From the NCBI RefSeq assembly GCF_041260155.1, contig NC_091938.1:19366632-19430631 (forward strand): 64,000 bases of DNA. Reading direction: 5' to 3'. The position numbers were made by a program, and so were the translations under genes. Shown piece after piece: positions 7,067 through 40,178 of the stretch. The first letter of the stretch is position 1. The number at the start of each line of letters is the position of its first letter. The notes beneath the pieces are model-generated. The model did not search any database, had not been told where the DNA came from, and worked only from the letters and a program-made list of their open reading frames with translations. Source of the DNA: Ptychodera flava (Eukaryota; Hemichordata; Enteropneusta; Ptychoderidae).

Positions 7067-10000
7067 CTCTGGCAGAAGACGGCTGGAAAGCGTACATCGA
7101 GTATAGTCTCATGATGAAATCATCGCCTTTGTACGGGCGAAGTCGACCTTTGTGGCGGGAAATTTCGTCTTCTGAGAGACTCACGTCCTGGTCCATTAAG
7201 TCTTCGATGGTGTTTCTGGCTCTCTCTAAGGTCGGGGAAGAGTAACGCGCTGGTTTGCTGCTAATAATTGGCAAAACCCTTGCATTTGAACGGAGGGCGA
7301 TGCCGAGTTTATCTGCAAGAAGAAGAGTAAAGATTGTGGTTTCTAAGCAGGTGTTAAAATGAACATTGAAGGTGAAATATTGAATAAATCCTCTCGGTAT
7401 GTTAGTATAAACAGCGTAATTAATAAATTATGTTATTTGGTGTGATGTGGTACAGTGTGGTGTGGTTTTGAGTGTGGGGTTGTGTGGTTTGATGTATTGT
7501 GGTGTGAGTTTAGAGTTGCATGGGCCGTGGTGTGGTTTATTTTGATGTAATGTGTGTGTTGTGATGTGATGTGGTGTGATGTGATGTGATGTGATGTGAT
7601 GTGTTGTGATGTGATGTGATGCGATGCGAAGCGATGCGGTGCGGTGCGGTGTGGTGTGATGTGATGTGATGTGATTCGATGTGATGTGATGTGATGTGAT
7701 GCGATGCGATGTGATGTGATGTGATGTGATGTGATGTGAAGTGAAGTGAAGTGATGTGATGTGGTGTGGTGTGGTGTGGTGTGGTGTGGTGTGGTGTGGT
7801 GTGATGTGATGTGATTCGATGTGTTGTGATGCGATGCTATGTGATGTGATGTGATGTGATGCGATGTGATGTGATTTGATGTGATTCGATATGTGATGTG
7901 ATACGATGTGATGTGATGTGATGTGATGTGATGTGATGTGATGTGATGTGATGTGATGTGATGTGGTGTGATGTGGTGTGACGTGACATGTGTGGTGTGG
8001 TGTGGTGTGGCGTGGTGTTGTGTTGTTCGCCGTGACATGACGTGGTTTGGTTTGGTTGGAGTGATGTGGTGCGCGCCTTTGCGTTGTGGTGTAGAGTGAT
8101 TGTTGTATTTGATGTGGTTTGGCGTGATGTGGTATTGCATTGGTACGGTAATGTACGGTATCATGGCATTTATCATGACATTATTACATGTAAATCAATG
8201 ATAAAACTCGATATAATGCCGAGAAAAGATGAACTTTTTAATTCAGCCGGTGAACAATGGTGAAAGCCGATGACATTTCTGATGATATACTTGTAAGCTT
8301 CTTTGCAAAAGCAAGCCCACTCTCTCTAAGTAGCAAGCTCACTCTCTGCATGTATTAAGTAAGCTTAGATACTTTCACTTTTAAAACACCACGTAAATTA
8401 TGACATTTACTTTTGAGTACTTTCGCCTTCATGGAATATTTGTGCATACCCACCTAGTTGCCTGCCCAGATATCTCATAATTTGATCTTCCTCGTTCAGA
8501 ATTTCGGCAAAACATCTCTCACAGTGACATAATAGAATAACCCTGTCGAATTTTGGAAATCGGTTAAACCAAAGCATTCGGGCTATTTTAACGCAGTATA
8601 GATTAAACACATTGTTTATGCCATAACTTCTCAAATATTTTGCTTTGAGGTTGTCTGTCATCGCGGAATGTGAATGATTCTCACAGAGTTTCAAAGTTGG
8701 AAATCCGTTGACAAAATACGTGAGCGCGTTGCTGATTTGCCGTCGGCTGTCGTCGTCGGAAGCAAGGGGCCTGGACAGTTCTACAGTAAAATGGCGATCG
8801 CGTTGAACCACGTGATTGGTTAAGAAAGGGTTGCTATGCAGATCCCCGTCAGCAAGAGTGTCACCTCTCTGACCAATCACAAGGATGTTGGAATCGCGCG
8901 TGCGCATCTCAAGTGGCGTACTGGGAATCAATGGCAGCTTGATTAGGTAGTCCACAATACAGTCAACCTGGGTCGAGTTGAATTCGTCGGACACGGAGAA
9001 AATTCGACGGTCCTGGGCAAGTTTCCACGCGAAACGGTCTCTGTGTTTCCACTGTTTCGGCCACTTGTCAGCGATGAATTCATCACCCAAATCTTTAGAC
9101 TTGCTGTCTCCATAGATCACGACTAATATCGACCCTGCAGTTGAACAAAACAATCAAATATCAAAATTGAAAGTCATAAATTGTTGACTGATGTCAATAT
9201 TTGAAAGTGATAATTCCATATTAAAATTAAAAGTCATGCTGCTGAAGGTCAAACTGAAGGAAAATGAAGAAAATCAGAGGATTGAAAAGCAAATACAAAT
9301 TTGTGTTTCCGATAACCCAATTTATATTATTGAAAACCCTCCGACCCTACAAACTTTTTTCTGCATTTTAAAAATTACGCAAGATTTTGCAAAGTTTTGA
9401 ATTACACCCCATTAAAAACAAAATAAGATTGTCCCGACCACTCTACCCTATATACTGAGGGTTTGTTAACGGAACTTGAACAAAAACATTTCTTTTACTA
9501 TTAGATTATTTCATGGTACTGTACTGACATGAAATTTCATTAGAGTTACCTTTGAGAGTACATCATCATGAACCTATAGTATGTCTCAAAGGTGGGTACT
9601 TAGCCAAATTGGTTTCCTTATCAGATTACATGACCTTACTCCAGTACACTAACAGTATCATGTCGTGTCTAACCCGGCAAACCTACGTATTCGATCATTT
9701 TTAAACATATGACCAACAAATACTCAAGTTAGACTGTTTTCGAAAGGGGGAAACTTTCCAGTTTTTGTACAAAAGGTCAGTCGCAGGTATCACTCTCTAA
9801 AATTGTCATAACTCAAATGTACTTCATATTCTGTCGAAAGTTTGTAAATGCCATATCAACAGACGGATTGGCGCCAAATTTGCAAATATATAAAATATAT
9901 ATAAATGACTCATATAGCGCAATTGATGTTCAAACTTTTCCTACCTTTGGGCTTAGTTGCAGTCCTGCTCAACATGGCCAACTCCTGTCTATGGTCGATG

Positions 10001-10275
10001 TTTCTGTCCCTTTTATGCGGTGCCAGACACACTCGACTCTGCCGGGCATCGATCACAACTACGGCGGTGGAAGTGGTAAACCCGTCGCAGGCCGAGTGGC
10101 CGGACTGTGAACCACCCAGGGTCCCCGACCTTCTGAAACTTCCGACGGTCACTTTCCCTCTGAGATTCTCGTTTCTTGCAACAACAGCATTTAGCAAACC
10201 TTTGACGTCTTCTTCAGCAGCTTTCTGGAAGGACTTTAACTTCGCGAAGACGAACAGCCGGTGTTTTTCCGCCAT
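7067..10275 (-). CDS. Family X protein A (unrecognised family, three coding exons)
   Basis: Exons 10275-9945, 9134-8454 and 7312-7067, joined in phase 1 each time; about 419 residues before the frame runs into a further, unseen exon. Start MAEKHR aligns with the starts of paralogues B and C. Exon 1 has VFAKLKSFQ (residues 9-17) and AVVVIDARQSR (71-81), then IDHR-x-EL. Exon 2 begins GSILVVIYGD and contains RIFS, NPFL, FPTLK, RFPKFDRV and the motif CHCERCF. Exon 3 has KLGIALRSNARVL and LYSMYAF. The pattern of short hydrophobic strands alternating with helices suggests an alpha/beta fold; TIR-like or flavodoxin-like folds are possible but unproven. The exon 2 donor at 8454 (CTAG|GTGGGT) was chosen over a later one because B and C split at the same place and the later one runs into a stop. 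The exon 3 donor appears to be GC (AGAG|GCAAGC). Divergent to GTPase 1, 1.9 kb away. Confidence 0.8.
7435..8110. repeat. Pentanucleotide (ATGTG)n satellite in intron 2 of family X gene A
   Basis: About 675 bp of TGTGA/TGTGG/TGCGA five-base units with drift, ending in GGTTT variants. It gives a long false open frame on the minus strand rich in His, Thr and Ser (HITSHHITS) that I do not take as coding. It fills most of the 1.1-kb intron 7313-8453. Confidence 0.95.
9135..9944. other. Intron 1 of family X gene A
   Basis: AT-rich, bounded by AAAG|GTAGGA (minus-strand donor at 9945) and CTGCAG| (acceptor before 9134). The short plus-strand open frame at 9191-9400 is lysine- and isoleucine-rich without recognisable features. 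Confidence 0.7.
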
Positions 10276-12154
10276 ATTTGATTGACGCCCACCACGAACA
10301 CGGTGAACAATATCACTTCAAAATATTTAGCCAGGTCGGCAGCAAAGGACCGCTACGTCCTTTCGGCCCTGTCCAGACGATAGCATGATCAGTCATGTCC
10401 ATCATAATGCTGTCAAACTATGTACGAATCATAAAGAGCATACAAACCTTGCCACCAATCTGGCTTGCGCATGTTTCCAACGCTAACAGTGAGCCTGCCA
10501 ATCTGATTTACATACCTGACTTTTGCACTGTGTCATCGGTATTTATGTTAATAGCAATATAAACATTGCCCAGGGCATGAATTATTGTTCCGCGTTTGTC
10601 AAAAGCCATTTCCCTATCTCTTGAATACTTGCAAGTAGTACAATAAAAGCTGACACTTGAAATTACCTGAAGTGTATGAGAAGGCCTCGAAAAACGTTCC
10701 ATCAATAGTCTTAGCTTGAAACCATCATAGGGACCTACAAACATGCACGAATGGGCCTGGTATAGCTAATATCGGGAAGACGTTTAACTAGTTTTCCTTA
10801 AAAACGATCTAGCTCTAAACGAATTGAGCAAATCATAGACCGGTTATCAATATGCAAATAATACATCAATATGCACGACACAAACATTGACATGCAAGCA
10901 TTTGAGAATGAACCTCTTCGATTACACGCTGCTTGAAGACGGAGGCAAAAAGAGCTCACAACAAAGCGCAAGAAGGCTCAATTTCTCCCTTACTCAAGGC
11001 GACGAGAATTTTTATACGAAGGCATGCTCATAATACCTATATGAATATATCTATGCAAATTTTGGAATAGAATCTTAATTTCTCATATTGATTTTATTTT
11101 CTGACCTATTTATACTTATCTCAGTTGCAGTCTTGAGATGGCAAAAGTTCGTTGAGTCATGGCAAGCTATCCATCATCACTTAAATGGAGTGTCAGAACA
11201 TATCTTGACGGAACCTAGTGATCAAATATAAATTATTTTTATGAGGGCTGAAAAATTTAGTTCCCCCTAGATGAATGTAGATCATTCTGAAACTCAAAAA
11301 AGCCCACTGAAATTAAATATCGGGGCCTTTGATTATCTTAATATCGTTTGTCAAAAGGTTTGAAGAATTAGTCAAGATTTAGGTGCCATCCGACCTTCTT
11401 TGTTCGAAGGTCACTGTACGGATGTACCTGCCTCGATCCGGGTACTGAGGTGTCTATATATTTAGCTTGTTTACTGACTGGAATAACTATCTTTCTTTTA
11501 TGACAATTATTTCTCTCACAACCAGGTAAACATGACAAAGAAATAAAGTCTGATTAACCTTAATTTACATTGAACTTAGCTCTCAGCTCATTAAAGGCGC
11601 AGTCCTCAATCCCTGGTTTTCGCATTTATTCTTGTTGACATTGGGCATTTTCATGGTGTTAGTCCGTTGTTTCCATTTGGAATTTCATCAAGTTGCCCAT
11701 TTTGCTTTGAGACAAATCAAAGCTGGCAAACAACCCGCCCCTTTAAAACACACTGTCGTATCAGCCCGTGCGGCTATAACACCTGTTGTTATCTAGAATA
11801 CTTCTTTTGCCCTGCTTAGGGCTCTGATTTGAGACCCACTAAGCTACCTTAGAACAGTCGCGCACATGCTGACGTATAAAGCAAGATTTATGAAGCCATG
11901 TACGTGCAGGGCAAAGAGGGGAGTTCCACCGGCAGTTGAGAGTTCCCTTTTCCGGAGCAAAGCAAGCACGATTACGTACTGAAGGAGGTTCAAATATAAG
12001 TGTGATCAGCGATTAACCATTTACGTTTTGTTGAATCCTACGCCATTGTTCGGAAGATATAAGAAGTGTGCAATGTCTATCGCTCTGGTCTGACTCTGTC
12101 CTGTTTGAAATTCACCGGTTTTGCTACAGCGTGTCGTGGAACAGACCAGATACC
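10276..12154. promoter_or_regulatory. Divergent intergenic region between family X gene A and GTPase 1
   Basis: 1.9 kb separating two start codons that point away from each other, so both 5' ends and promoters must lie here unless untranslated exons sit elsewhere. No clear TATA box, interferon-response or NF-kB site was confirmed by eye. No coding exon is supported inside it. Confidence 0.45.
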
Positions 12155-15100
12155 ATGAGTCGACAAACTCTTCTGGCTGATCCGCTGAGCACCTCTCGAA
12201 TTTATGTGACCATGAGAGGTTTCGGCTCGCCAGACGCGGACCTACACATATACGTGCGATACGCCAAGGGAGGCCCTAATCCGATCCGCATCGAATGCCA
12301 CAAGGACGACACCGTCTACGACCTGATCAAAACACTGATCATCCGCGCGAAAGAGTTCGGTTTGGACAACGCCGGGGTCACGCTCAGAGAAGGGGATATC
12401 ACCGTGTACAAAGTCATACAAGATCAAGAATGCAATGTGCAGAAGAAGGAACGGCTGCCTCCCAGAAGGCTACTGACAGAAGTACACGAATTTGACTTGG
12501 AGTTCGAGGCAGGTGAGGTCAAGTTTTCATTGAGCAGCAATTTTTGCTTGATGACAAAACCAGCAAATGACCAAATGACTTCTCTAGCGATAGCACAGTA
12601 CAATAGGTCATAACAAATTTCTTCCTTGTTCATCAACATACTGTTAACATAGGTTTCTTAGCGAACATTCCACGCGAATTGGCATCACTAAGACCCAGGT
12701 GTGCGACGGGATCAGTACATTTAATTTTGCCTACTCTAAATCCCCTACCTGTTGCATCTCTTTCCACCTTTGATATTTACTTCCGTGTGGGGTGTATATG
12801 CCCTCTCAGTCTCTCATGCATGACAACAGCTCAAAATGGAAGAACACGAATACAATTTGCAGGCCGTATGTCATGTCCTAACACGAGTCGACCGGCAAGT
12901 GTATCAAAAGTATATACATGGGAGACAAGCTAATCCGCACCAATAAACAGCAGTAAAAATACATGGGGTCCTTTGGTAGCGCCAGGCTTTGAAGTGAAAC
13001 ATGGGACAGGGTCGTTTTGCGAGGTATTGAAGTATATATTTTCGCTGGCAGACCTCGACGACACCACGGTGATATCGGACCACGGTGTATGTTTTTGCTC
13101 ATCAATCGACAACTTTGTCGTCGATACAGCTCTGGCTCAAACACATTTTTTGTTTGAATCGCAACAGAAGTTGTTGTACTTGAAGGGGTTCGATCCCAAA
13201 TGCAATTGCAAAATTCAGGGAGGCAGTTACGTAAAAATAACATTTCAACTCTCGTTCGATGATTGCTTGACAAGGGGAAGCGTTATTTTAAATTTGTTAA
13301 AAAATGCTTTGGGCGCAAAAATGGTGCAGCAAACATCATTTATGATTTTCATGCACTTGTAAAACATTTAGTGAAATGACACAAAGCAACGACAATGTAA
13401 ATTTGCTGAGCCCGATTTTCTTCGTCTTTAGTCCCGTGCAGTTATTTTAATAACTTCTGTCGTGCTTCGAATGTAACACTTGTCTTTAATACTCGACGAT
13501 TTTCATGACAAGAAGGACATGGCCATATTGCTAGCGCTAGAGTTTGTTTCATCACTGAGGTAATGAAAAGATTATTTTGTACCTCTTTGTTATGATGAAT
13601 CGCCCTGGACCGGTGTATATACATTACGTTTGCCCCGGCACGTCCAGTGGTGGACTTTAGTTTTCAAGTGACCACTTACGCGTTGTTTTACTTTTAATTT
13701 ACAATTCAGGTTGACTTTATGGGTGGTTCAGTTAAAAACCTAGCCTAGGCATTCTTTTGCAAGGCATGGCTTTACATACCGCGGCCGTTCTGTTACAAAT
13801 GCCATTGGAACCAGTCAGCGTAATCTTCGGAATTACCAAAATCCATGATGACGTCATTCTCCAGTTGTGAAACCAGGCGTGTGTTGTGTATATTTCTATA
13901 TTTTACATTTACATTTCCGGGTGTGATACATAACAATTGCATTGATACCCCAATATTGTTTAGAGAACAAAACACTAAAAAGTGTGCGATTACGCTTTTG
14001 GCGTTGTTCCAAATCAAAATTACACAATTCAAAATGTTTCTTCCGCTTGAGACTATAATAAAAATTCCTTTTCCCCGTAACATGACGAAGTAGGGAAGGC
14101 CAGACCAGACCTGTAGAAAAATTCAAGATTTGACAAGGTCGCTCGTTATATTTGAAAATGAAAAATCTTCATACTGTTCATGTCGGAAGAATGAAAAGTG
14201 ATAGATCGAGATTACCGTTAAGGCGCCTTGAAGTTGAAACAATTAAATTTGTGCTCATGCAAACTTTCATCAAAGAAACTTGAAACCTTTCCCAGCAGAA
14301 ATCAAGAAAAACACATCAGGGGCTACCGTGCAACACTTGGTCCGAGAGAAACAACCTTATAATTACTTGTATTTGAAATTCAAAATGACAGCCATCCCAA
14401 AATCGACTCTATAGATTTTTCGACTTTTGAAATAACAGTAATAATTATTCAGTCAAAGTCATATGCATCTGCACTGCAGGTAATTTCAATGTAAACATTT
14501 TCCCCAACTTTCAGTAGTTAACTCTTGAATGTGGTTTAACCGACCCCGGATAATTGGTATTTATGTACAAAGGAGGCGAACGATCCAGTTAAATTATCTC
14601 CTTGTGGTTTGCAGTATAATATTACGCGCTAGCAAGGACTACAGTCTGCTGTTGTTCATGTCTTTGTCGCTAGGCACACAGCCTAAACTTTGCAACGTGA
14701 CATTGGCAAATATTTATTTGGTTTAATAAAACCAACAGCATGATGAAATACAGTTCGTATGGCTACGGCCTTTGAACTTTGTACTTCAGTTTTGTCACAA
14801 ATATTGACCCTCAAACTCCCATGTATCTTGACTCCAGATCTGTTTGCGAATTTAATCGCACAAACGGGGCCTCCCTGGGACTTCCCCTCCGGACTTACTT
14901 AAGGCAGTACGCACCTCGAAAATGAATGACTAAATATTTTGCTCAAACTGCGCTTAATGAAACATTCAAGCATACTATTACTAAATAAAGAATAAAAATC
15001 GGTGGTCATCGTGTAAAAGTTGGCACTAGATAAACAAATTACCTGACATTCACCGATATCTGAAATTCAAAATGGCCGCCATACCTGTGTTACCTTAATG

Positions 15101-18100
15101 GGGATAAAATTTTCGATATTCAAAAAGCGAAGACGGTTAACATTTTTATTACCTCAAGAGCTTTGAAATAAGCACCAACAAGATGTAGACCAGAAAAGTA
15201 TTGAAAAATCTGAGAGTCCTAATATCTGTCCGAAGGCACATTCTACCTTAATTCGGCCAGCTTATCACATACGTACGCTCAATTATTGTCTTTTATATCT
15301 AATCTTTTAGATTCATCTTATTGCTAGGCTAACATTTACGACATGATTAAAGTAAGCCCGCTAGGAACCAACTGATTGGATAATATCTACTTTATTGCCA
15401 TTGTCGCCGCTGTTTATGGTGTTGTCGTCCTTGCTCGACAAAGATGACAACTAAATACTAAACGGATAAATATTATGAGAAGATGGAAAAAACTATTCAT
15501 AGTGATATTAGGCAAAAATGAATACAAGGAAATTTTAATCAATTTCAGCTTGGTGTCAATTTTCCTGTGATCTCACAGGCATTTGGAGTGTCCATTGTGG
15601 TGTACGCACAAAAATACGCGAAGCGCCCGTGAATCTCCTCAGCGCGTACTGTGTATACAAATAAGCAAGGTGTGACAGTAGCCGAGGATAAGAATCAGAA
15701 ATAACCGCTACAATAAAGAAATCAAATTCACAAACTTATACTTAACATTCTGCACTCTCCTCTCGCACTATTCACAAACAAAAGCGTGTAGTGCGCCGGC
15801 ATCAGTTTAGCACTTGCAAACTTTCCGGCAGCGCAGAGTTTGCTTCCATGGTGAAAACTAATTCACAAGAATGGACGAAATAGAAATTTTATACACCCTG
15901 TTTAGTAGAAATTTAAAGGAATGGCGATAAAAAAATCATGGTGTTCACGGCTTAACACATCATACTGAGAAACAAATAAAACCGTAATTTTAAAAAGCCG
16001 AGCGGAACTTCAAAAACAGACGGATAGAACAGTTATTTAAAAGCAGCGGAAGTATACATGTAAAACAATTGTAAAATTGAAGGCTCCCTTAGTTCTGCTA
16101 ACACGATGAGTTATGTGCCGTATGCAGTGCAATTGGTGACAAGTCAACGCTAGTTCGGATTAAGATTCAGCTATCAACCATAATATCGGATATTGTACAC
16201 ATTCAAGTTTTGTTGCCAGGTCAGATACCAAGTATTTCGACATGACTGGGACAGTGGGACAAGGAATTGCATTTCAAAAATCGGACAAGCATTCTGGCAA
16301 ATAAACCAAGATTTCAACCTATGCGGCTTTTGGTTGATCAGAGGCGTGTATAACGTCAGATTTATGCTCGGAATGTTTGAATAACTAACAGGTATTTTGA
16401 GAGCACAATAGCCTATCGTATAAAATGACAGATTGACTTCGTCAAATCTCTCCAACTTCTCGAAATCAGGTCAGCATACCAAAGTCTCTCGAGCCGTTAA
16501 TAATCATTATTTTTCAAATTACTATCTTAAAAAAGGACGAACATGTTGAAAAGAATCAGATTGGAACTTGTGAGTTGGCCTATCTTATCCAAAGGAGCTG
16601 TATGTAGTATCCGTGGCTATGCTTTGAAAGAAAGGAAGCTACTTGCCTAACATTTCAACATTCGAAATCGTAATTATTCATCAAATAAACAGAGTTTTGG
16701 CGTTGAGGTTGCATTTTGCATGGGTGAAATTCAGCGTCTAGCCTCGTTTTGGTGTCATATGAATAAATAATAACTCATACATTATTAATTAATACAGCCA
16801 TTCATAAACAAGACATATATCATCCACTACATGACATAAGGAAGTTTGGTTTCCTTAGGTGTCAGTGGTACAAACAAAATCTCGTGGTAAACAAGCATGG
16901 AAATGCGGCCAACCAAAACATATGTCTATACCGCCTACACTGTAGATTTTTGCTCGACAATGTTTGTTTTTTGTTTTGTTTTGTTTTTAGGGGGATTGTT
17001 GTTTCCACTCGTAAGTGATTTTTCTTTTGACCCTGTGGACTATGACTGGACGTACCGTGAAATTTCTATACATGACCGTCAAAAATGAAAATTAGCCACG
17101 CAGTCGTTAAACAAAGAATTGTCGTTCATTTGAGAGTTCAAATGTATGAAAAGGGGGCGCATTTTGTCATATTAAATGATTAAATGATGCCAAAATGAAG
17201 AATTTCTACCGTGGGTTATGAAGTCAAACAGATTTGCTAAGGTCATAGTCCGGCATCCTTTGCGATTATAACATGTCTTTTTAATACCCTCCGCATATGT
17301 TCTCCACAAAAATCCTCGCCACAGAATTCCCAAATGAATATTTAACAATTAAAATGACTCGCACGATATCGTATCACTAAAAGTGATAGACTTGATCTGT
17401 GTAGTTGCTTTATGCAAATATCCGTACGTGCTACGAGGACAGAGAAATTATCTTGCAGTTAGTGAAAATGGTGTGAACTGTGGTGGTTTAAGTCTAGTGC
17501 TGAAGTGAGTAGCAAAAAAAACAGAGAGTGAAACCGGAAGTAACTCGCATCATCGAAGCGTTTTTGCTAAAATGTCACGAGCCAGAAACAGATCTTTTTC
17601 TTGGTCCCAAGACTTGTCGCAGTGAAGGAAGCATAAAAGCTTTGGGGTTTTTTTTCGCAGATGTATGTGAAGTCCCAGTGTCGCACGCACGAGCGGACAC
17701 CAGTGCCGTGTTTCTGTGCCGCAGGACGGAGACGTTCGGTGACCTGGCCCGGAAAATACAAACTAGGCTGCCGACGTTTCACTTCCAGGAGGCCTACCTA
17801 AAAGAAATCAGGGAACAGCTGGAAGGGGGCGCTCAACTGAGAATTTCCGAGTATTCGAGTGTTGGCGGGAAGAGCAAACTGGTTGATCCCACTACCAAGA
17901 TAGGAGACTTGGAGGACAAGACTTTTGGGTTCACTGTTGAAACGCCAAAGAAAGCGATTACTTTAGGTAAGTGAACTTCTATGCGAACTATAACAAACCA
18001 ATTTCAATGTTTTACCATTCGGCAGTAGCTCATGTGCGTTACAATTAGTGAAATGTAGATGAATAAGTGGAAAATTTGTCATTTTCCTTGTGTAGCAAAG

Positions 18101-18857
18101 ACCTTAAACTTAATTAAACTGACCAGTCGATAGAGGTAATTTCAGTCAAAGCGCCCTCAATGATAGTCTCATTTACTAGTGAACTTCGCTCGACAGTATA
18201 TTCTGTTCTTCGACTCAGTTCACACTTACTTACACATGTATGTTGATTTTTATTTCAGCTGATATTAAAGAAAACATATGCGGACAAAATATTGCTTTCT
18301 TTGGTCCTTCCGGCAACGGAAAATCATCAACTATAAACACATTTGCCAAGGTAAGGGATCCAAAGTTCTTGAAGAATGGACTGTCACCCACGTTCGAAGT
18401 GAATACTAAGCAAGACAAACTGAAATCACGCCCCCAACGACAGATCCTGTCTAGCAGGAAGCACGAAATTGTTTGCAGTTTGCTACGTTTACTGTTTTTG
18501 CGTAGAAAGTTTCCAGATACTATTTGGCTCTTACAGTTTCACCAGCTGTTTATTTCAAAATATCTTCCACTATAACCGTTCTGTTAATGAAAAACAAAAT
18601 TATTTTTCTACTCTACCCTCCCCCAATAATGATGAGATGCCCAGTCTTGTCAACACCGCAAGTATGCGTGGCGTTCCATGATTTGATGACAAATATAATT
18701 TTAGTTCTGAAATCAGTGACGAGAGTTCATCAGTAAACAGTAATACAAAACATATTGTTTACAATGCGACATGTTTCCAAGGCAATTACTAGTAGTTTGA
18801 AGTTCAACATACCTAAGATATTTGAATGAGAATATGGAGTCTTCTTTTGTAATGTGT

Positions 18858-18927
<70 letters not shown>

Positions 18928-20503
18928 GTATTCAGATTTCCCCGTGGTAAATTAGAGTACTCGATGCTAAAAGCAGAGCGTTATAGATAATAACACAAAT
19001 CATTTTGCATTTATTTTGAAGTTGAAGTAATTTAGGTTTATATGTGACTGATAGCATTACATTTCTTTTCATTCCAATTTTCGCGTTCTAGGCATTGATA
19101 GGCGTGTACCAGCCACTCGCGCAGACGTTTCAGCTAGAGGGGCCCGGTACAAAAGTGTTCAAGCCGTACAAATTCTCCATAGAGAACAGGACGTTCTTCC
19201 TCTGTGACGTGCCAGGCCGCGGTCTCTTGGTCGACGACGATGAGGATTCAAGCAAAATTATCACACGAATTCTAGATGGCAAACTTCCCGCCGAAAGGCC
19301 TCTAGACCACAAGATAAGGTTTTTTGACAGAGGATTTGGCAAGATCCATGGTGTCGTTTACATTCACAAATGGGAAGCGGAGTTGGATGAACTTCACACG
19401 TGTTTGTCCGATGAACTTGCAACAAGAGGTTAGTTAAGGAAAGCTTTGACTTAAAGATATTTATATCCCGAGTGACATCGCATCAAATGAGAACACTTAC
19501 TTGTGACTTTAATTTTCGAACACTGAAATACCAAGAAATCGCCTGGCAAACAAAGACTGTATATTTGCGAAATTGTGTGTATAGAGCTAGATTGATGGAT
19601 GGATTGATGGAACTAGGCTGCAAAGTTAAAGGGATACAGTCGTCGGAACTGCGCTCAAGGTCGTATGGGACCCATACGACCAATGTAAACAATGTATCCA
19701 AAGGTACGATGGTGATTGATGAAAGTTAAAACATGTCTGTCATAATCTACATCGTATAATTTAAATGTTGCAGCTATGATGATGAGATGCATCTAGATAT
19801 CGTGCACAAAATACATTGTTTGTGAACAAGAAACTCGCACAGGCGCAGTTCCGACGACAGTTTCCCTTTAAGCTTGGCATACTTCTTTATATCTGCATAC
19901 GAACCCCGAAACACATGTACACATAGAACACATCAGAAATCTAACCATTCATCAGTCTCATCAGCAGTCAGTTGGTAACCTAGCCGAAGTACACTCACTT
20001 TGTCACTTTGGGTCTACCTTGAGGGCGCACTTGCCCATTCCTAACACCTTGTGCAGGCAGTACAGTCCAAGATGGTCCCATCGTAATTGTTCTATTTGCT
20101 TCTTCAAGTTGGAACTGGTGATTTATTTACTGTACCATGAGTGAAAAATGATCATTTGATCCGTTTTGATGTCGTATTTTGCTATTCTCTTGTTTTCACA
20201 GGAAGTGGAATACCGATGATTGTCATAATGACACATATTGACCGCGCGCAAGACAATCCCGAATTGATCGCTCAGAAATGCAGCGAGTTGGCCGAAAAAA
20301 TCGGCATCGACGTCGCGAACGTCTTCACCATATCGAACTTTGACCACGAGACAGAGCACGAAGATCAACAGAGAGACGCGCACGCTCTGAACTTGCTCAA
20401 CAAGATCTTGGCGTCGGCCAAGTCCTTCTGCAACAGGGGAAAAGTCAGAGTATCCGAAATTGTCAAGGAGTTCAATAGCCTTACAACGACAGACAAACAC
20501 TAG
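12155..20503 (+). CDS. IFI44-like GTPase 1 with two N-terminal beta-grasp-like modules
   Basis: Five coding exons: 12155-12512, 17661-17966, 18259-18350, 19092-19428, 20202-20503; phases 1,1,0,1; 464 residues. The ATG at 12155 (MSRQTLL) was preferred over an in-frame ATG 29 codons earlier because GTPase 2 begins at the matching place. Exon 1 (residues about 27-119) and exon 2 (120-221) each show strand-strand-helix order like ubiquitin-like folds (LHIYVRYAKGG...TVYDLIKTL; VFLCRRTETFGDLARKI). The GTPase part has P-loop GPSGNGKSS (237-245), DVPG (291-294) as G3 and THID (375-378) as G4. Matches to the IFI44 family outside these are RILDGKLP, GKIHGVVYIHKW and the VFTISNF...LLNKILASAKSF tail. Probably a cytosolic GTP-binding protein of immune type. 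A poly(A) signal AATAAA lies at 20858. The vertebrate TLDc domain is absent. Confidence 0.87.
14217..14420 (+). mobile_element. Degenerate partial copy of the TTAA-flanked MITE family
   Basis: Begins TTAAGGCGCCTTG, keeps the order GCTCATGCAAACTTTCATC, the conserved TTGAAATTCAAAATG-C-AGCCAT core and a CGACTCTATAGA stretch seen in the intact copies at 14903 and 39276, but has drifted strongly and lacks a clear right end. Confidence 0.55.
14903..15247 (+). mobile_element. TTAA-flanked MITE, copy 1
   Basis: 345 bp with ends GGCAGTACGCACCTCG and (reverse complement of the right end) GGTAGAATGTGCCTTCG, flanked on both sides by TTAA (14899-14902, 15248-15251). The interior carries AAAATGGCCGCCAT, shared with the copy at 39276. 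TTAA target sites are typical of the piggyBac superfamily; the GG terminal bases differ from the usual CC, so the superfamily is tentative. Non-coding. Confidence 0.82.
18351..19091. other. Intron 3 of GTPase 1 with (AT)n tract
   Basis: Lies between the P-loop exon (donor CCAAG|GTAAGG) and the exon with DVPG (acceptor TTCTAG|). Besides the AT microsatellite at 18860-18923 nothing is recognised. Confidence 0.75.
18860..18923. repeat. (AT)n microsatellite
   Basis: Uninterrupted TA dinucleotides over about 64 bp inside intron 3 of GTPase 1. Confidence 0.97.
19630..19867. mobile_element. TTAA-flanked MITE, second family (AGGGA ends)
   Basis: 238 bp in intron 4 of GTPase 1. Left end AGGGATACAGTCGTCGGAAC and right end reverse complement AGGGAAACTGTCGTCGGAAC pair over about 25 bp; TTAA stands outside both ends (19626-19629, 19868-19871). 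A near-perfect palindrome (GGTCGTATGGG-A-CCCATACGACC, 19659-19681) lies just inside the left end. No coding capacity; piggyBac-like by target site only. Confidence 0.85.
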
Positions 20504-20863: not shown

Positions 20864-21704
20864 TAGTCAAGAGAGTGATAACTGTTATCAACGACAAGGT
20901 TAAGGGCTTCATACTGAAGCCAGAACTGTAAGTTTATAAAAACAGATCGACCATAGCCCTGGATTAAAGTTCCATCAAAAAATCATGTCCGTTGTGTGTA
21001 CAACAACAATGTAATCATAGCTACCGAACATGCGCACACCTTCGCTGTAACTTACATTATCACGTACGTGTGCAGACAAGCACTAATTGGGTCGAGTATT
21101 CAAGCGATATCGTCTAAATAAAATCATAGAAATAGTGACATGCTTTCGTCGGCTTGGGTCAGGCCACCTCTGCAATACCGATCATTATTACGTTATCTTG
21201 CCACTCGACCGTCGTTTGGCAACTGGTTGCCCATCTTCCATTAGCGGGCGAATTTCCGGCGTGCCGGCCGTTTTAGTAAATTTTAAATGTATGGCCATTC
21301 TGACATCTCGACGTCTTCCCTTCTGATGAATGTGATGGCTATTGATAGCATGGTGCATCGCTGAAGAACATGTTTTGAGAAAGGGATGGCGTTCCCAAAA
21401 TTTCGCCAGAATTGCATGACAACACCCATGAGTTTTTTTTAAAACAAGCATACGGTTCATCTTGTTAGTCGGATCGGTTACATACATAGAGACGACCCGC
21501 ATCATCATCAGTCGTTCTCAAAATGACAAATCCATCGTATCAGATGTGACAGCTGCAATCGCTGTCACAGAAAATAAAAATAAGCCCAGTTTCTAAAATA
21601 TCCGAATGCACTCGGCAGATGAAGGCAGTCGTACATCATGCGGAGTGTTTTCTTTCTACGGAAGACTGTGTTAGAGATAGAATCACAGAATGGTTGGATG
21701 TCAT

Positions 21705-24082: not shown

Positions 24083-24796
24083 TTACTGTCCTCCAAGGTG
24101 TCGCTTTATCGCTGCAACTCCAGTCTTGCAGACGTCCATCGGCGGGTTTTCCATCTGGTTACCGTCGACCATAACCCTCTTCAGTTTAGGCAATTTCGTT
24201 ATGGCGTCGGGCAGGTCAGACAGGTTGTTGTCCTGCGCCCAGATCTCTTGCAACAGGGGCAGGTTGCCGATGCAGTCCGGGAGTTTGCTCAAATGGTTGC
24301 CATTCACCACCAGCACTTTCAGGCATCGCAGTGAGCTCAAATTCTCCGGCAACTCCGTCAGCTTGTTATTCCTCAAGTATAGCTCTTCGATTTCGGAGTC
24401 GCACAGCACATCCGGGAAACTCTCGAACTCGTTGTTGTCCAGCCACAATTCGCGCAGGTTGCTCAAGTTAGCGATGCTTTTCGGCAGCGACTTCAGCTTG
24501 TTACCCCGTAGATCCAGCACCCTCAACTCGCGCAGCTCGCAAACCACCTCGGGCAGCTCTTCAAGGCCGTTCTCGCTGAACGTCAGACTCTCGAGCCTTC
24601 CCAGGTGCACTAAATCCTCCGGCAAGTCGACAATGCTGTTGCCCTTAAGACTGAGGCCCATCAGGTTCCGCTGCCCGTAAACGGCTTTCGGAATACCGGT
24701 GAGCCGCGAATTGTCGAGGTCGACGCACACGCCAAGGTCACCCTGGTTGTTGATGAAGGGCTCAAAGAACAGTTTGACTCCATCGCCATCGGACAT
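24083..24796 (-). CDS. Leucine-rich repeat protein
   Basis: Intact frame of 237 codons from ATG at 24796 to TAA. A short N-terminal part (residues 1-30) precedes about eight leucine-rich repeats of 21-23 residues (e.g. LRVLDLRGNKLKSLP, LKVLVVNGNHLSKLP), closing with VCKTGVAAIKRHLGGQ, a tail seen at the end of many plain intracellular LRR domains. No signal peptide or membrane segment. The last codons also contain possible donors (GGACA|GTAAAA), so the frame could instead be a first exon continuing into another domain as in the LRR-caspase gene; no such exon was found. It holds the same place and strand in module 2 as the LRR-caspase gene in module 1. Function would be protein-protein recognition, partner unknown. 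Confidence 0.82.
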   Translation of the reverse strand: MSDGDGVKLFFEPFINNQGDLGVCVDLDNSRLTGIPKAVYGQRNLMGLSLKGNSIVDLPEDLVHLGRLESLTFSENGLEELPEVVCELRELRVLDLRGNKLKSLPKSIANLSNLRELWLDNNEFESFPDVLCDSEIEELYLRNNKLTELPENLSSLRCLKVLVVNGNHLSKLPDCIGNLPLLQEIWAQDNNLSDLPDAITKLPKLKRVMVDGNQMENPPMDVCKTGVAAIKRHLGGQ

Positions 24797-27700
24797 GTTT
24801 GCTGATGTTGCTGAGATGCAAATCGTTCGTAACTAACTGTCAGTGTTCTTTCAGTTGGACTTACAAAAGGTGTTTCAGTACCCGTCGACTACAAGGGCGC
24901 GAACAGTATATTCACCAGTCTTTGGTGCAAGAGAGACAGATGTTCTGGTAGATACGGACCTCTGAACTGTTTCTGTTCTTCGAGTGGCCCCACTTCGTGT
25001 GTGCCGTTCGTTCCCGCGTTTCTTATCAGTTCAGCCAATGGACGCGTGACCAAAAACGACGCAATTTAAACATTACCTAGGTTTCCGGAGTGTCAGTTTT
25101 CCGGTGGCATGCAGAGAGCGGCGAGGATCGTTCCCGAAACTGTTATGCAAATTTGTGCTTCCGATGTACAACACAAAAAATGTTCTTTTCTGTGCTGGGT
25201 ATCGTGCTATCCTATTCGTCGAGAGACAACACGAAATTTCCAGACTCTGGTTTTAAACCTCAGCCACGAACTTTGGGAGACAGACAGATAACATCAGCAA
25301 TGTTGCGGGGCACGTCGGCGGCACTGTGACACATTTATATGTGATGTTTGCCGCGTTAAAGGGTTGACCCCAGCTGAACGCATGTATTATTAATACATAG
25401 GCAAAAACGTAATTTTAAACCGCCACGCACAACACTAACAATGGCAACCCAGTAATGCATGACTTAGCACGTTGTATTCGATGGCATTGTGGGAAAATAT
25501 CAATTCCCACACAGATTAATTTGACACAGTTAATAAGATATGGGAGCCAGCAGAGAAAGACTCTTTTAACGTTTTGACAGGGTCAATATCTCTATTTGTA
25601 CATTCAAATATGTCAGACAAATGTTTTAGTCTGCATCGAGTCGATAATTTTAAGCTAACATTTGACGAGACGGCGCACATAACGGATTATGAAGGTCATT
25701 ATGGAGGACAATATCGGAGCAATTTGCCATTCCATTTCATTTTTATCTCGTATTAAATCTTTATGTAATATCGCCAATGCTTAATTTTAATACTGTACTT
25801 TTATTGTCGGCCGTATCAATTGACACATTTGTAATCCTATATCACGGGCGTGAGAAATGTGAAGGAAAATTATTGCGCGCTCCAGAAATGTAGAATAAGT
25901 GATTGTAAAAACTTGGGGTCGTAGAACTAGTACTGGATCTGATATTGTCCCATTCTTAGTCACACAGACAGACACATACAGAGACAGAAACATATAGACA
26001 CGCACACACACACAAGAAGAAATACAACCGTTACGTTGTATCACCACATGCTCACACAGCAATAGAAGTCGCGACTGTGTGTGAGGTTTCCATGGCAACA
26101 AAAGCCCGGGGAGAAATAAATGACGTCATCGCCCCCATACGACCTTCACGCAGAAACGTATTTAAGTAATTGTCGGGCATTCAGATTCTGTGTAATCGCA
26201 TTTTGTCGTCATAGTAACAAGGGGATGATTTCACGACATCCGACAGCCGACATTGCCTCAACGTTTCGCTCGAATAAATTTTGATATTAACTTGCATGGA
26301 GTTGCGATTCTAAATGCCAAATGATCACCTCCGCGACATTATTCCTTAATTTTGTCACTCGATAAAAATGTGATTAATTAGGCAGCGATTAAATGTGACA
26401 ACCGCATGACTTCGGGGAGTACGCAATATTGAGAGTGTCTGGCTTATACCAGGATACTATAATACTTCATCCTGCGAGCAGCTGGCGTTAAACCCTCTCG
26501 TGCTGTTTCTGATTTTTGTGGTTTTCTCTTTTAGATTATTCTGTAATGATGCATGTTCTGTTGTTTTTTTATACTCGACGAATTGCAATTTATGAACAGA
26601 ATTGTACAATTCCTTTGAAAGTACAGGCGCACAAAGGGACATCGAATATAACACTAAGTGTAGCCCTCTTAATATTTTATGTATTTTTCTTTAATATGAC
26701 AAGGATGTTTTCATCTCCGTAAAGTATGTCAACTTGAACTTGAAAGAGAAGGTGTTATATAATCTTGCACATTCACCGCATTTTGTACAATGATGCAGGA
26801 GGTGACGAGTACAGTGGATTCAGGTCCGGACTAAAATTCAGCTGCCAAAGATGACATGAATACTGTAAATATACACAGACAGGCCCTTTTCATAAGTTAT
26901 AAACATCGAAACGTCGACATTGTTTTGATAGTAGAACAAGAAACTGTATGTCCTTAGTGATGCTGGCAAAAATACATCAAAGGTTACATACAGGTGACAC
27001 TTAAAGAGACTCACGGTGCGAGTCACTTACTGCGTCATCATAGCTGCAAATAATAGCACGCCCGCGTCCACTATACGGGACTGTGCTCACTGTGAAAATT
27101 ACACCGTGGTTTTGATGGAAACCTATCTTCATACAACTTATTGTCAGAGTTTTTAGCATGAAAGCGGACGATGTTAGTGATGATTGAATGATCATTATAT
27201 TTATATTATCTTCGATTTGTAAGTTTTAAATGTTTTAATGTCCATATATTTACAAATTATTTAAAAATCCCAACAAAATAATTTGAAAAGAACGTATTTC
27301 TCATCAACTTGTGATTTTTCCCATTTCACATATGGGGAGGGAGTGATATTAAGCGATTAACATTGCAAATAGCCTGTGACCCCATATTTTTATTTGATGC
27401 ATATGTGCAATATCTGAACAATAATTTATGTGAAAATAAACAAAATTGTCTGATTGGAAACTAAGATAATTCTATGGACGAAGGCCTGAGATGTGATAAA
27501 AAAATTTAAATTCTTACGCACACTTTCAGCGGAAAAATAGCTAAAACTTTCATTTATTATTCAATGTGGTTCACATGTAAATAAAACAAGTGCAGCATTT
27601 CAAGAAAGGAACTGAAAGTAAATATATCTGTTCGGCAACGCTGACTGGAGATTCATAATTTCTGTCATTCGAATGGGATAAAGTGGGTGTATTTCAAATC

Positions 27701-30457: not shown

Positions 30458-30639
<182 letters not shown>

Positions 30640-30781
30640 AGCTCTCAAACACATCACTATCATCATCATCATCTAACATTGATGTCATAAAGCAACGTTG
30701 TCTTTTAGTGTAATTTTCCATGCACAAAATCATAATTTTCCTGAACAGTACAAGGAATCAGAAGAGTAGGGATAAAGTGTA

Positions 30782-32150: not shown

Positions 32151-32425
32151 CTGAAAGACAATGAAAACTAATTAAGAGTATGGCTTTAATGTTTAGAAAA
32201 CGGGATGCTTTACCCTTATATATAGGGCATTTTGTAGAAATGAACAAATTCTATAAATGAGCACATTCTCAAACGTCACACCTATTGTCAGTTTAATGAG
32301 CTCGTTCTAAACTTGGCAATTGAAAATTGTAAGTTTATTGAAATATATATGTGTCTTTTGGTGCTATAGGTATTTAATTCAATTAACATAACGGCAAAAT
32401 CACTTATTATAAGTTTCACTCTAAC

Positions 32426-35400
32426 CTGGTTGGAAGGCATACATCGTGTACAATTCATATATGAAGTCGTAGTCGTCTTGTAGTAAGTCAAGACGGCTTG
32501 TTAGCCTTTCGCCCGATCTAGTAGACAGGCTGTCTTCTATTTCCAACTTGGCTCTATTTCTTACACGAGCTTCTTTTAATTTCGATTTCAGCAATGGCAA
32601 CACTCTTACTTCAGCGTGTAGTTTCACTCCAAGCTTGTCTGAAAGTGGAACAAAAAACTTTCCTTTGTTCTTTTATGTGGTTCATCGCACAGGTACATTT
32701 TACTATTTTAAATTTCGCAATTCAATCACGGAAATGAGATTTTCAGAACACATTATGTTCTGTGTTATTCTGACGAGTTTGGCATAAGATTATCGCAAAT
32801 GTACTTAATATCCAGAACGCTCTGTTACACTCAGTATTAAACTAAAAGTTCTTCATTCGCGCATTTGCAAACATTATGATTTCATTCTCATAAAACAATG
32901 TCAACTGTACCTACTTAGTTCCGAAATCAGATGTCTTGTAATATCTTCTTCGCCGGCTTTGGTGCGACAGAAACATTCTTCGCAATGGCAGATCAGTAGA
33001 ACTTTATCGAATATCGGAAAGCGTTTGAACCAAAGACGTCTAGATACTTTGAAAAAATAAAGATTTACCATGTTGTTAAATCCAGAGTCTATAAAGTCCT
33101 TGGCTCTCAACATGTCGGTGATCGGCCCAGAGTGATCACAAACCTTCAGTATTGGAAAGCTGTCAACGTAGAATGCTTTTAAGGGGCTGTTGTCGTATGT
33201 GTGCTTTCCGTCCGAGTCGGCGAAGGATAGATACTTTGTCTCCTCGGCGGTGTAATTAAGTTCGCGTACAGTGACACGAGTGGTCAGTAACGGATTGCAG
33301 TGGACGTCCAACTCTCGGGCGTCTTTATCTCGTTTGCCGAGCACCAGAACATTTGAGGCTCGACTCTCCGACGGAAAAAGTGGCAATTTTATCAGATACT
33401 CAGCAATGGCTGATACTTGTTTTTCGTTGAATTTGTTGAAGATGGAAAATATTCTATTGTGTTTGACAAGCTGCGTGGAAACTTTATCGCGAATTTTCCA
33501 ACTTTTGACAAACCTTTCCGCCACCAATTTACCATTCAAGCTGTCAGACTCATGGTCTCCATAAATAACGACCAAAATTGAACCTGGAATGATAAAATCA
33601 CATAGCCTTTCAATTTGCGTTTTGGCTGTGTCAAGAAATTGTGCTTTAGTCGTTGATTACAAGTTAATTCAACAGTGAGAGCATTGTAAGTAACAGTGCT
33701 GCTTCCGGGCACAATTCCTTCTATATTCGAATTCAGAAAAACGCAATCTGAACAATCTGAATATAGAAGGCGAGTGCCACAACTGGGCTACTCCTGTTAA
33801 ACTACTGGGCTGCACAAAAGCTACCATCACGGGGTTACGCCCCTTCCCAAGGGAGATGGTCGATCGTTATCAATAACTCTGCCATGTATCTAGCCCATAC
33901 CATGTCGAAATACGAAGTATTCTGTTTGTCAACACAGCCTCTATATATCTACAATCACCATTGCGTACTTTTTAGGGATTATTGCACAAAGTTTGGTCGA
34001 CATCGTGTTGTATTCGATATCGTGTCCATGTTTGACTGGTTGCGCAGCAATGAGTCAAAATGCGGACACATCACGAGAATACGACGCGGTATCGCCCAAA
34101 CTTCGTGTAATAACCCCTTTATCATACATGCATGCTTTGGTTATGACTGTTTTCCGATCGATGTTCCGAAATAAGCGACAAAATCGACGGAAATCGACCT
34201 TGCTTGCTTCTCGATATACTCATAGAAAGTTGGTAGCTAAAGAGTGATGGCAACAAGGGTAGATGCACAACATAGGCTGGTGTGTATAAAATGAGTTTGT
34301 TTTCGTGTTTTAAAAAAGGCTCGCAAAAAATCGGGTCAAAATCGAACTCCACTAGCATTCAAGACAGTGCTCGATCGAGTGGCCACACAGCACACGGAGC
34401 GAGCAAGTTCATGGACATTTAAAATGAGGATATAGTAGCCGTACCAGTCAGTTCATCTCCAAGAATTATGCATTTCCTTAGACGTCACATATGCCGAATT
34501 TACCATTTTAGAAAGGAATTTGCATAGTGGGTGGATTATGGAAACTTTGAAGTGAGTAAAGGGTAGTAACTCATTCATTGTAACACGGTCCTCTCAGAGT
34601 AGGGATCGTGATTGTAATTTTAATGTACATGTTGTTGCACTACGAATGAAAATATTTCAAAGGTATTTACATCACCTGCTTGTATATTTTCGTTACTGGC
34701 TTGCCTAAATAGAACTAAACTTGCCCAACACGAAAGTTTGACTTTCTTTGAATATCTTATACCCTGCACTTTGTACTCGAAACTTACACGGTCATGATCC
34801 TCACTTCTCTGAGTCACTGTACGAATTGGAGAAATGATATAAGCTTTATATGCACCTTCTCTGCATGTCGTGTATTTTCAAAGGCGTACTCGAATTCTTG
34901 AGGTTCATTTACATCTATACTCGATATAATTCACTACCTGAATATGAAAACTCGTCAATAGGAAACTTGCCATAGAGTGGCTCTGTAATGATGATGCTTT
35001 GTTCAGGGTTGTACTCTTCAGCAGAGGGACCGTGAACGATGACAGGTGTCAGTCGCAACACATACAAATTTTTAATGCGTTCTTTTGTTTGTTTTTGGTA
35101 AAGCTATGCTTGTGGCATTTCTGCATGTACCTAAGTTAAATGCCAAACAAACTGGAAGAAAACAACAAAATTTGGCCCATAATTATAAATGACGCTTCGA
35201 AATGTCAGCTGTTTTATCTGTTTACCATATAAACATACTGTACCGACGCGTACGCCTAGCTTTAAGTAAATCCGGTTTCAGTAAAAATAATATGATTCAT
35301 ATTTTACATGTTACATGTTAAAATACCGGTTCATATCAGTACTGTCTACACATTATGAATGGCAATACAGGCATTACAAGTATGATAAATAACAATATTA

Positions 35401-35861: not shown

Positions 35862-38031
35862 AGATGGGTGTTGGTTGAACTTTGCGCGAGCCACGGCTTT
35901 TAAGTGTTATCACCCGATGATTTGAAATGAGTCTTGTCGTCTGGACAGATGTATCGTGCAACTCAAACGACACAATGAATGTGCTCGAGTCACGCTTTCG
36001 AAAATTGAATGTACCGTTGACGGAAGGGCTATATCACGTACGCCTCTTTCAAGCATTGTAAACCATTTTGTGTGTGCAGCTATCTTTATTTGATTTCCAC
36101 TCCAGAAAAAATATGACCTATCACCAGTGGCGGTCACTTTGTTAATGGAAAAGATAACACAAGAGCGATATGAAAGTTATGTCAAGAGTCACGATACTGC
36201 GGTTCGCATGTACTTTGTAAATTCCACAGCGAACCATTAATTGGTCATTGTTTTACAAAGAGCTACAATAGTATATACAACATTGCAATCTTGGAAGACG
36301 CGTCCGCCAAATAAAGAACCATTTGATCTCAAAGGATCAAGAAACGTATGTCAACTTGCCTGCCCTGATTTACTCTCTACACATTTTTACACTACATAGG
36401 CATGAAGATTTCTATGCTTTGCGAGACTTCTTCATATAGGGTCAGTCATTTTCATCATTGTTCCCTACAAAACTTTGCTTTTTTCAGAAAGGTGTAGACT
36501 CCTGAGATGGTTATTCCGCGGAACATTAACTTTATTAGTGATATTGAATACATGTAGAATGTTTGTGGAGTATTAATTCCTGAAAAATCCGCTCTTACAA
36601 TAAACGACCAGTTTTTCGACGCCTGAGCTCAAATAATTCCTTTTCAAATCATACTCTCCTAATGGTACCAATGACTATTTCATTTCAGCCAATCCGATAT
36701 GATCTTCAAAATACATATTTAAATTTATATTTACTCAAACTTTCTTTGCTTCATCAATGTTCATGTATTTCGCCGGACCTTTCAAATTGTTATCTGAATA
36801 ATATAGATCTATTTTTACGAGATACGTACTGTATTAATTTACATGCCTGGAAACAGTGGGACGTTAGCGGAGCAACTGTAAAATTGAACACTGAATCGAG
36901 AAAAAAGTTAACATAACCTAACGGTACAAAGCCAAACAATATTTATGGTTGGGTCCATCCAATGTTCTTGGTTAGATTATTCTGTCTTTCTTCCGAAAGT
37001 TTTCGGTGACCATTTTCCCGGACAGAGCACAAACTTAGCGTGAGCACCAACATTTTGTTGTTGTTCAATTTAGTGGTGTGACAATCCCAGTGACATTTTC
37101 TTAGTGTTTAATGTAAATTGCTGAGTACAGAGTATACGCCAATGCGCTGGCAGACGAGAAAAGAAAAGGCAAGCAAATAAACATCTCTTGGACAGAGATG
37201 AAGAGATTCAATCGAGGCAACATTATATCGACTACATTGAGCAAGACTCTACTAAGACTGAATATGTATAGTTAGATGAGGCGTTTATTACAATTTCCAT
37301 ATATTTTGTCTGTTACTATTTTGTTTTGACATCTCGGTATATGCATCAAAGTCAAAGTCATAATTAACGCGAGACAAATGAATAAATTCGGCAGAGACGA
37401 CCAACCAGGCCAAATTTCTTGCCTCCGATCACCGCCAAAGAGTGTGACCGCTGTCTCTTCATTCCGTTGTCAGCATTATTTTACAACCATGTGGAGACTG
37501 GTTCATTTGAATGCCCTTGATAGATAAATAAAAGATAAAACAAAACACGGTGTAAGAACTTGTTTGATTGAGAGAAACTACTTTCATATGCATGGTAAAA
37601 CCAATAATATCACTCCTATACGCTTGTAAATCCACTATGTTACAATGTAACTGCGATAATATCAATCTTAATACGATTCTAATTAATGTTCCATAAGTGT
37701 AAAGTAAGTGTCGTAAAGTTATAGCTCGAAGTGTAGACTTGCTCCAAGTCTGTGGGCATATAAGTATCAAAACATATAATAAATTGAAGGACTGAACATA
37801 AGCAGACCGTCGCGCTAATGGTACGCTGTTACGTAGATCGAGGGGTGAGCGCCTTGACGCACATTTGGCCAGCCAGTAACTCAGCTGCCGAGGAAAGCTA
37901 GGCGACTGGGGGCCAGTCGAAGTGCAAACGGCGTCGTTTACTGCACGACATTAGTCGAGTCGAGTTCGGGGGAAGACAGCGGTGGACGAGAATTCAAGGA
38001 AAAGTGCTGAATGATCACTTGAATTGCATAC
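35862..38031. other. Stretch between family X genes B and C
   Basis: AT-rich. It should contain the promoter of gene B and the 3' part of gene C, whose exon 3 ends in phase 1 at a donor (GCAG|GTATGC). I could not find a matching fourth exon here. No repeats of note. Confidence 0.45.
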
Positions 38032-40178
38032 CTGCTTGCAAAGTGCTCATGTGCATGTTATACAGATCAAAAATAAAGCTATCATCTAGATTGAGTAATT
38101 GCAGGCATGTTTTCATGTGACGTTTACATTCATATGAAAGACTGTTTTCTTCATCAATGGCGTCTTCTATTGCCAACTTTGCCTTCATTTTGACGTCACC
38201 GTCTTCGGATTCAATGTTCGCCAGTGTTACCACTCTTGCATTTGAACTCAATTGAATTCCAAGTTTTCCTGAATTAAAAGAAGACACATGGGCTGTCAAT
38301 CTGATGCATAAACCCAAAGGTTAGTTTGTCCAATAGACTCCCATGTATTGTAATTGGATGTTTAGGGTGAAATTCCAAATCACCGCACCCCTACCGTCAC
38401 TGTCCAGTGCCTTATGTATGAGAACCTTCAAAATAAGAAAGTCGTACTCACTTAATTCCGATTTTAGTCCCTTCTCGATGTCGTCTCTTTCTAGGGTTGC
38501 TTTGATAAAGCAGTCTTCGCAATGACATACAATCAAAACCTTGTCGAATATCGGAAAGCGGCTGAGCCAAAGTACTCTGGGTATCTCAACAAAGTGGAGA
38601 TTGATCTTGTTCACTATTCCGGAGTCTTTTAAGTCTTTGGCTGTAATCGAGTTTCTGGCTTCTGGCGAGCACTTACCGTCGCAAAACTTCAACAGAGGAA
38701 AATCGTCCGCGAAATACGTCGTTACGGAGCTCGCTTCATTGTTGCATTGCTCATCGTCAAGCGAGGTATATTTTAATTCATCGACGGTGAATTGGCCTTC
38801 ATGTTTATAAACATAATGATTTAAAAAGGGATTTTGCTGAATATCGTCTGCTTTTTGGTGTCCTTGATCTCTCTTACCGAGAACGAGGATATTAGAGCTT
38901 ACTGTTTGAGTTGTCATGAGGGGTGACCTTATCAGGTAGTCGATAATACTAGCTCTCTGCTTTGAATTAAATTCGTCAAATATGGAAAATATTCTGTTCT
39001 GGTTCACCAGCTTCATCGCTAGTGCATCATTAATTTTCCAGCTCTTCAGCCAATGGTCGGCGACCACTTTATCGTCATTTATGCTTTTAGATTTCTGATC
39101 TCCGTATATAACAGCCAATATAGAGCCTTCAAAGGAAAAAGAAAAAATAAACTTGTAATTTGTATATCAGTATAGTGTGTGACAAATATTTTTTTGCTGT
39201 CATCTACGGGCTTATGACTGTGCAAGTCTTTGTAAAAGGGAGTGGGTAACAAATGTGATAATGCTACATACTTAAGGTAGTATGCACCTCGAAAGTGAAA
39301 CACTTAAACTTTTGCTCAAACTTTCCTTAATGAAACTTTCAGCAACTCTCTTACCACATCAAAAATAAGGTCGGGAGTCACCATGCAAATTTTGGAAATA
39401 GAGAAAGAAATAACTCAAGATTTACCGATATTTAAAATTCAAAATGGCCGCCATCCTTATGTTAACTCTATGGAGAAAAAATACAATTTTCGATTTTCGA
39501 AAAACTAAGAGCTTTAAAATGAACCCCCACAAGAAGTACATCAGAAAAGAATAGCAAAAGTTTGAAAGTCCAAATATCTTTCCCCGAGGCGCGTTCTACC
39601 TTAATGTAAAAGTCATGCTTATTAAATCATCATCTGCTGTCTAGTATCAGTACGTACGTCAAGCAAAAAATTTGGAACATTTATCTACTATGAATAAAAA
39701 TCTTTGGTTATTTCTCTTGCTACCTTTGAGTTATTATTTCTGGAGTATTTCTCGTCCATAAATGAAAATTATAATTTCATATTGATTTGTTTGAAAAAGA
39801 GTCGATCAGTAAAAAACCAATGTAATAACCATAAATTTAAAAAAAGATCTTGTGATATGAAATCCCTGTACCGTTTGGCTTTGTAGCTGTTCTGTACAAC
39901 ATGTCGAGTTCGCTGCGGTGGTCGATATTACTATCTCGTTTCGACTGAACGAGACAAACGCGGCTCTGTCTGGCGTCGATGACGATGACTGCCGTCGTAC
40001 ATACAGCTGCACCTGCCGGTACAGAACCTTTTCCTGTGCAGTACTGTTTGACTGTAACCATACCGTTGAGATGGTGGTCATTTTCGATTATTTCCTCCAG
40101 TAGGTGTACGATTCTCTTTGCAGCCTTTTGAAAAGATCTAAGCTTAGCGAAAACAAGCACTCTATGTCCTTCTGACAT
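38032..40178 (-). CDS. Family X protein C (unrecognised family, three coding exons)
   Basis: Exons 40178-39872, 39126-38452 and 38268-38032, phase 1 joins, about 406 residues before a further unseen exon. MSEGHRVLVFAKL aligns with the starts of A and B; the longer upstream frame lacks counterparts. Conserved marks: FAKLRSFQKAA, AVIVIDARQSRVCLVQ, IDHRSELDMLY, ATKPNGSILAVIYGD, RIFSIFDEFNSKQ, ILVLGKRD, NPFL, FPLLKFC, RFPIFDKVLIVCHCEDCF, KLGIQLSSNARVV, LYNMHM. Exon sizes (307, 675, 237) are close to those of A (331, 681, 246) and B (316, 669, 213). The nearest gene upstream is GTPase 2 on the other strand, 5.5 kb away, mirroring gene A with GTPase 1. Intron 1 carries a TTAA-flanked MITE. Confidence 0.82.
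39276..39600 (+). mobile_element. TTAA-flanked MITE, copy 2 (same family as 14903-15247)
   Basis: 325 bp in intron 1 of family X gene C. Left end GGTAGTATGCACCTCG; right end reverse complement GGTAGAACGCGCCTCG; TTAA outside both (39272-39275, 39601-39604). It shares the AAAATGGCCGCCAT core with copy 1. Well preserved, so younger than the fragments at 14217, 45115 and 53805. Confidence 0.88.

Follow-up and report, generated by a model that had tools for sequence, protein, structure and literature searches.

Three paralogous genes of a conserved protein family without a library match in the acorn worm Ptychodera flava

Tandem families of unknown proteins are common in animals amid immune-like genes, and such families sometimes yield new effectors. 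Among described domains, the TIR domain has an alternating beta-alpha order, and ACT1 (SEFIR domain) and MyD88 (TIR domain) form a true fold pair. Expansions of the TRADD-N domain, an adaptor domain of RRM fold, are on record in amphioxus, echinoderms and hemichordates, and that account gives as its signature a tiny-Ser motif, a conserved small residue plus Ser or Cys, at the beta2-beta3 turn (PMC8195603). Here we analyse 64,000 nucleotides of the Ptychodera flava genome (NC_091938.1, positions 19,366,632 to 19,430,631, forward strand; the window), which contain three related genes, A, B and C, of a family that we call X. An earlier note had described them, from the letters alone, as paralogues of an unrecognised family with a possible TIR-like or other Rossmann-type fold.

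Gene models and conservation of family X

The three genes were rebuilt from the DNA. Each lies on the minus strand and has three exons, all of them open:

9945..10275, minus strand: gene A exon 1 (start Met, FAKLKSFQ, VIDARQSRVCL, IDHRQEL, ATKP)
8454..9134, minus strand: gene A exon 2 (GSILVVIYGD, RIFS, CHCERCF)
7044..7312, minus strand: gene A exon 3, including the stop codon
35546..35861, minus strand: gene B exon 1
32915..33583, minus strand: gene B exon 2
32421..32638, minus strand: gene B exon 3, including the stop codon
39872..40178, minus strand: gene C exon 1
38452..39126, minus strand: gene C exon 2
38015..38268, minus strand: gene C exon 3, including the stop codon

The predicted proteins are 426 (A), 400 (B) and 411 (C) amino acids long. 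All six introns are GT-AG and of phase 1, and both intron positions are common to the three genes, as previously claimed; the exon sizes, said to be shared, are similar and not equal (331/681/269 bases in A, 316/669/218 in B and 307/675/254 in C). The start Met is aligned across the three genes, and the frames upstream of it have no conservation visible by eye. We placed the lower end of each gene at its first in-frame stop (7044, 32421 and 38015). The ends proposed earlier (7067, 32426 and 38032) sit beside possible phase-1 donors that come after the final conserved codons in exon 3 (7065-7066 in A, GC; 32424-32425 in B, GT; 38030-38031 in C, GT), and a cross-gene comparison of the sequence downstream, outside the LRR (leucine-rich repeat) frames, found no conserved fourth exon; thus the earlier observation was right and only the ends are slightly corrected. 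That comparison gave 42 matches at E ≤1 (best 0.055), and the opposite strand, taken as background, gave 35 (best 0.022). An AATAAA follows the stop codon of B by 81 bases, whereas the nearest one comes 464 bases after the stop in A and 725 bases after it in C. Intron 2 of gene A contains a long array of short GATGT/GTGTG-type units (7430-8200).

Pairwise protein identity is 45-49%: 193/395 positions between C and B (48.9%), 186/394 between B and A (47.2%) and 183/404 between C and A (45.3%), and all three proteins share the same residue at 141 of gene C's 411 positions. Over the whole coding sequence, nonsynonymous differences per site (pN, 0.32-0.37) stay well under synonymous ones (pS, 0.78-0.84), the pN/pS pairs being 0.354/0.843 for A-B, 0.367/0.835 for A-C and 0.320/0.779 for B-C, with synonymous sites saturated. 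Introns of different genes have no similarity to each other (blastn, coding strand, E 0.01). Amino-acid-changing differences have been held back, which is purifying selection acting on real paralogues, and on both points the earlier description holds. The islands of conservation that it quoted are present, the final one reading CHCExCF. No fourth copy was found in the window by tblastn with each protein, where matches beyond the family's own exons had E values of 2.5 or worse.

In the stretch VIDARQSRxCLxxxKRDxxIDHRxEL, 11 of 23 positions (68-90) are invariant and carry a charged, His or amide residue, a density reached by 9 of 10000 permutations; similarly, 22 of the 30 positions from position 62 onwards are invariant, which 7 of 10000 permutations reached. 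Four other conservation-window tests were reached by 52, 466, 99 and 58 of 10000 permutations. Judged by its composition, the invariant polar cluster suits a catalytic or a ligand site, and either role would be compatible with it.

Searches of Pfam-A (models up to 2025) with the three proteins and a hand-made consensus gave only chance-level matches at E values up to 10, the best being 0.014 (MRS2-like) and 0.032 (Spore_YtfJ), which fall well short of the curated cut-offs; the Pfam search proposed in the earlier note assigned no family. NCBIfam, PADLOC and PHROGs gave nothing significant (best PADLOC E 0.023, for one of the three members), nor did a profile search of PDB sequences (best E 0.23 at full length, 0.78 for exon 1 and 0.10 for exon 2). 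In viral contigs, 25 candidate stretches from the full-length alignment and 54 from the exon 1 alignment yielded no confirmed relative; in GTDB contigs the corresponding 38 and 20 candidates likewise yielded none, and phages gave no relative by tblastn with gene C. A literature search on neighbouring topics, made by topic and not by protein sequence, found no account of such a family among the papers listed. The DNA searched for relatives was prokaryote, viral and phage only, and since no eukaryotic collection was among it, "unrecognised" means absent from these libraries only. With that meaning, X is almost certainly a real, conserved gene family that the libraries searched leave unplaced.

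The same scope makes it possible, if doubtful, that eukaryotic databases already contain an annotation for X, for instance as a divergent member of some described family, and that X seems unknown only through the choice of collections. Lineage-restricted animal families are often absent from Pfam, which favours this explanation, whereas the lack of any significant match in Pfam-A and in all PDB sequences speaks against it.

Predicted fold and possible function

We tentatively favour the reading that X works inside the cell as a binding or adaptor protein, of an immune or stress type. None of the three proteins has a hydrophobic segment of membrane strength or a signal peptide-like start, and the protein would on these grounds be intracellular. 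Its N-terminal ~115 residues may fold into a compact alpha/beta domain (beta-alpha-beta-beta-beta-alpha, with a further strand contributed by exon 2), in predicted shape nearest to the domain with which class II tRNA synthetases and GCN2 bind the anticodon or its counterpart (the anticodon-binding domain). Invariant polar residues from D68 to E90 would provide a putative surface for a ligand or for nucleic acid, and the remaining ~300 residues, at the C-terminal side, would make up a second, unplaced part with the CHCExCF knuckle. The gene was presumably duplicated along with one LRR-only and one P-loop GTPase gene, and later again in tandem (B and C); its product would most likely work with the LRR and GTPase products, in a binding or adaptor role in intracellular defence or stress signalling. 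Comparison of parts of the protein with hhalign gave no signal of internal duplication, the sole high score (d1 against d2) being self-overlap of the pieces.

The structural likeness comes from exon 1, whose model has the order beta-alpha-beta-beta-beta-alpha, with neighbouring strands that have no helix between them (predicted local distance difference test, pLDDT, 65). Its best structural neighbours, among the matches listed, were HisRS, ThrRS, GlyRS and the HisRS-like part of GCN2, and in predicted topology, too, it may be like the anticodon-binding domain found in class II tRNA synthetases, GCN2 and NCOA5. Several points limit this likeness. Exons 1 and 2 were folded separately rather than as the spliced protein, which weakens the fold result, and the exon 2 model was useless (mean pLDDT 35) and was left out of the structural search. 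The fold match of the exon 1 model stays below a confident level, and no sequence similarity to the anticodon-binding domain was detectable by an insensitive method. X also differs from class II tRNA synthetases in lacking a Pfam match to their catalytic domain.

The single-sequence profile tests are insensitive because ACT1 against MyD88, run as a control, scored only 14.2 and failed too. With that method, residues 1-115 scored between 9.8 and 16.4 against Escherichia coli HisRS, ThrRS and ProRS. Homology to NCOA5 looked plausible by eye, but in this insensitive test residues 1-115 scored 11.3 against its anticodon-binding domain (1v95), at background, a value equalled or beaten by 142/344 random E. 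coli pieces and by 38 of 100 column shuffles. NCOA5 is absent among the 50 structural matches listed for the exon 1 model; none of these is titled as a TIR, nuclease or RRM protein, which excludes nothing.

The TIR-like or Rossmann-type, NAD-consuming effector proposed earlier found no support, and a TIR- or SEFIR-like domain, acting through NAD consumption or homotypic contacts, seems highly unlikely. X shares with such domains a mixed alpha/beta character: judged by residue propensities, the part beyond exon 1 has strands and helices in rough alternation, and the invariant E90 lies near a helix start. The adjacent strands of the exon 1 model (pLDDT 65) differ from the alternating, flavodoxin-like core of TIR topology, however, and no TIR match appeared in the family-model libraries. 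Against the MyD88 TIR domain, 136 of 265 random E. coli pieces did as well as X or better, and against the ACT1 SEFIR domain 199 of 265; the weakness of this insensitive test leaves a TIR domain unsupported rather than excluded. We give an equally low probability to a TRADD-N-like adaptor domain. Its beta-alpha-beta-beta-alpha-beta order could fit exon 1 together with the beginning of exon 2, provided that beta3 and beta4 of the model were one bent strand, and the animal immune-like neighbourhood is a further likeness to these adaptors (PMC8195603). Pfam gave no TRADD-N match, and in the beta2-beta3 loop, with strand limits taken from the pLDDT 65 model, only G56 is invariant, without a Ser or Cys after it in all three genes. 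The small-Ser turn that the same source gives as the signature is thus missing, and membership was rejected.

A divergent PD-(D/E)XK nuclease of Mrr type, cutting foreign or damaged nucleic acid, is unlikely, although its element order (helix, beta, beta with D68, beta with Q78-x-K80-R81, helix, beta) can be followed in X and the D...QxKR motif is present in genes B and C. In an hhalign comparison of residues 1-200 with seven Mrr catalytic domains (an eighth was dropped), the score was 24.4, with QSKR aligned on QAKR, against 20.3 for the best of 60 column shuffles and 15.5 for a reversed control. With the single EcoKMrr domain, 8/265 random E. coli pieces score as high or higher, and full-length EcoKMrr ranks sixth among 136 frames from three E. 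coli stretches. The match probability is nevertheless 7.6%, whereas a positive control of two Mrr subsets scores 139, and the similarity lies within the upper background. The comparison was not blind because the family had been picked by eye beforehand. D68 and K80 are invariant, but position 78 is Q in B and C and P in A, which breaks the (D/E/Q)XK motif there. Pfam gave no Mrr match, and no nuclease is among the 50 structural matches listed for the exon 1 model.

It is also improbable that X is a family of intracellular enzymes in invertebrate defence, so far undescribed, whose active site would draw on some of D68, R70, K80, R81, D82, H87 and E90 and whose gene was duplicated jointly with those of an LRR sensor and of a P-loop GTPase, such that the three products serve one pathway. 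On the present library searches and partial fold, X is an ordinary orphan family, and such families are often met in tandem. Its gene models are well defined, its invariant polar site is accessible to mutation and the recurrence of its neighbourhood points to likely partners, so that the role of X is open to testing.

Neighbouring genes and other features of the window

The following features accompany family X:

749..1696, minus strand: LRR-only open frame downstream of gene A (Pfam LRR_8, E 6.9e-24)
24086..24832, minus strand: LRR-only open frame downstream of genes B and C (Pfam LRR_4, E 6.2e-24)
12035..20503, plus strand: P-loop GTPase gene 1, exon pieces only (MMR_HSR1 at 21.1 bits, slightly short of the 21.9 cut-off)
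45561..54592, plus strand: P-loop GTPase gene 2, exon pieces only (MMR_HSR1 23.6 bits, cut-off 21.9)

The gene order between 749 and 54592 is thus LRR (-), X-A (-), GTPase (+), followed by LRR (-), X-B (-), X-C (-), GTPase (+). This order, together with the paralogy, suggests duplication of a block and a later tandem copy of X as the simplest reading. The two LRR frames are 32.6% identical, a level that many LRR proteins would reach. Three exon pieces of the GTPase genes, which we take to be IFI44-like, are 35-57% identical, while the first two exon pieces have no mutual match at E 0.001. The exons preceding each GTPase gene look ubiquitin-like by eye, without a Pfam match and without a match to each other.

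Rfam models (at gathering scores) and a tRNA scan gave nothing, and no GGGRNTTTCC site was found. Sites of the form GAAANNGAAA occur 11 times against 5.66 expected, a count reached in 2 of 100 shuffles. Long (CT)n/(GA)n microsatellites, recognised as SLSLSL or ERERER frames, lie at approximately 2700-2930, 5720-5850, 21690-21800, 30480-30660, 42110-42400 and 51000-51130.
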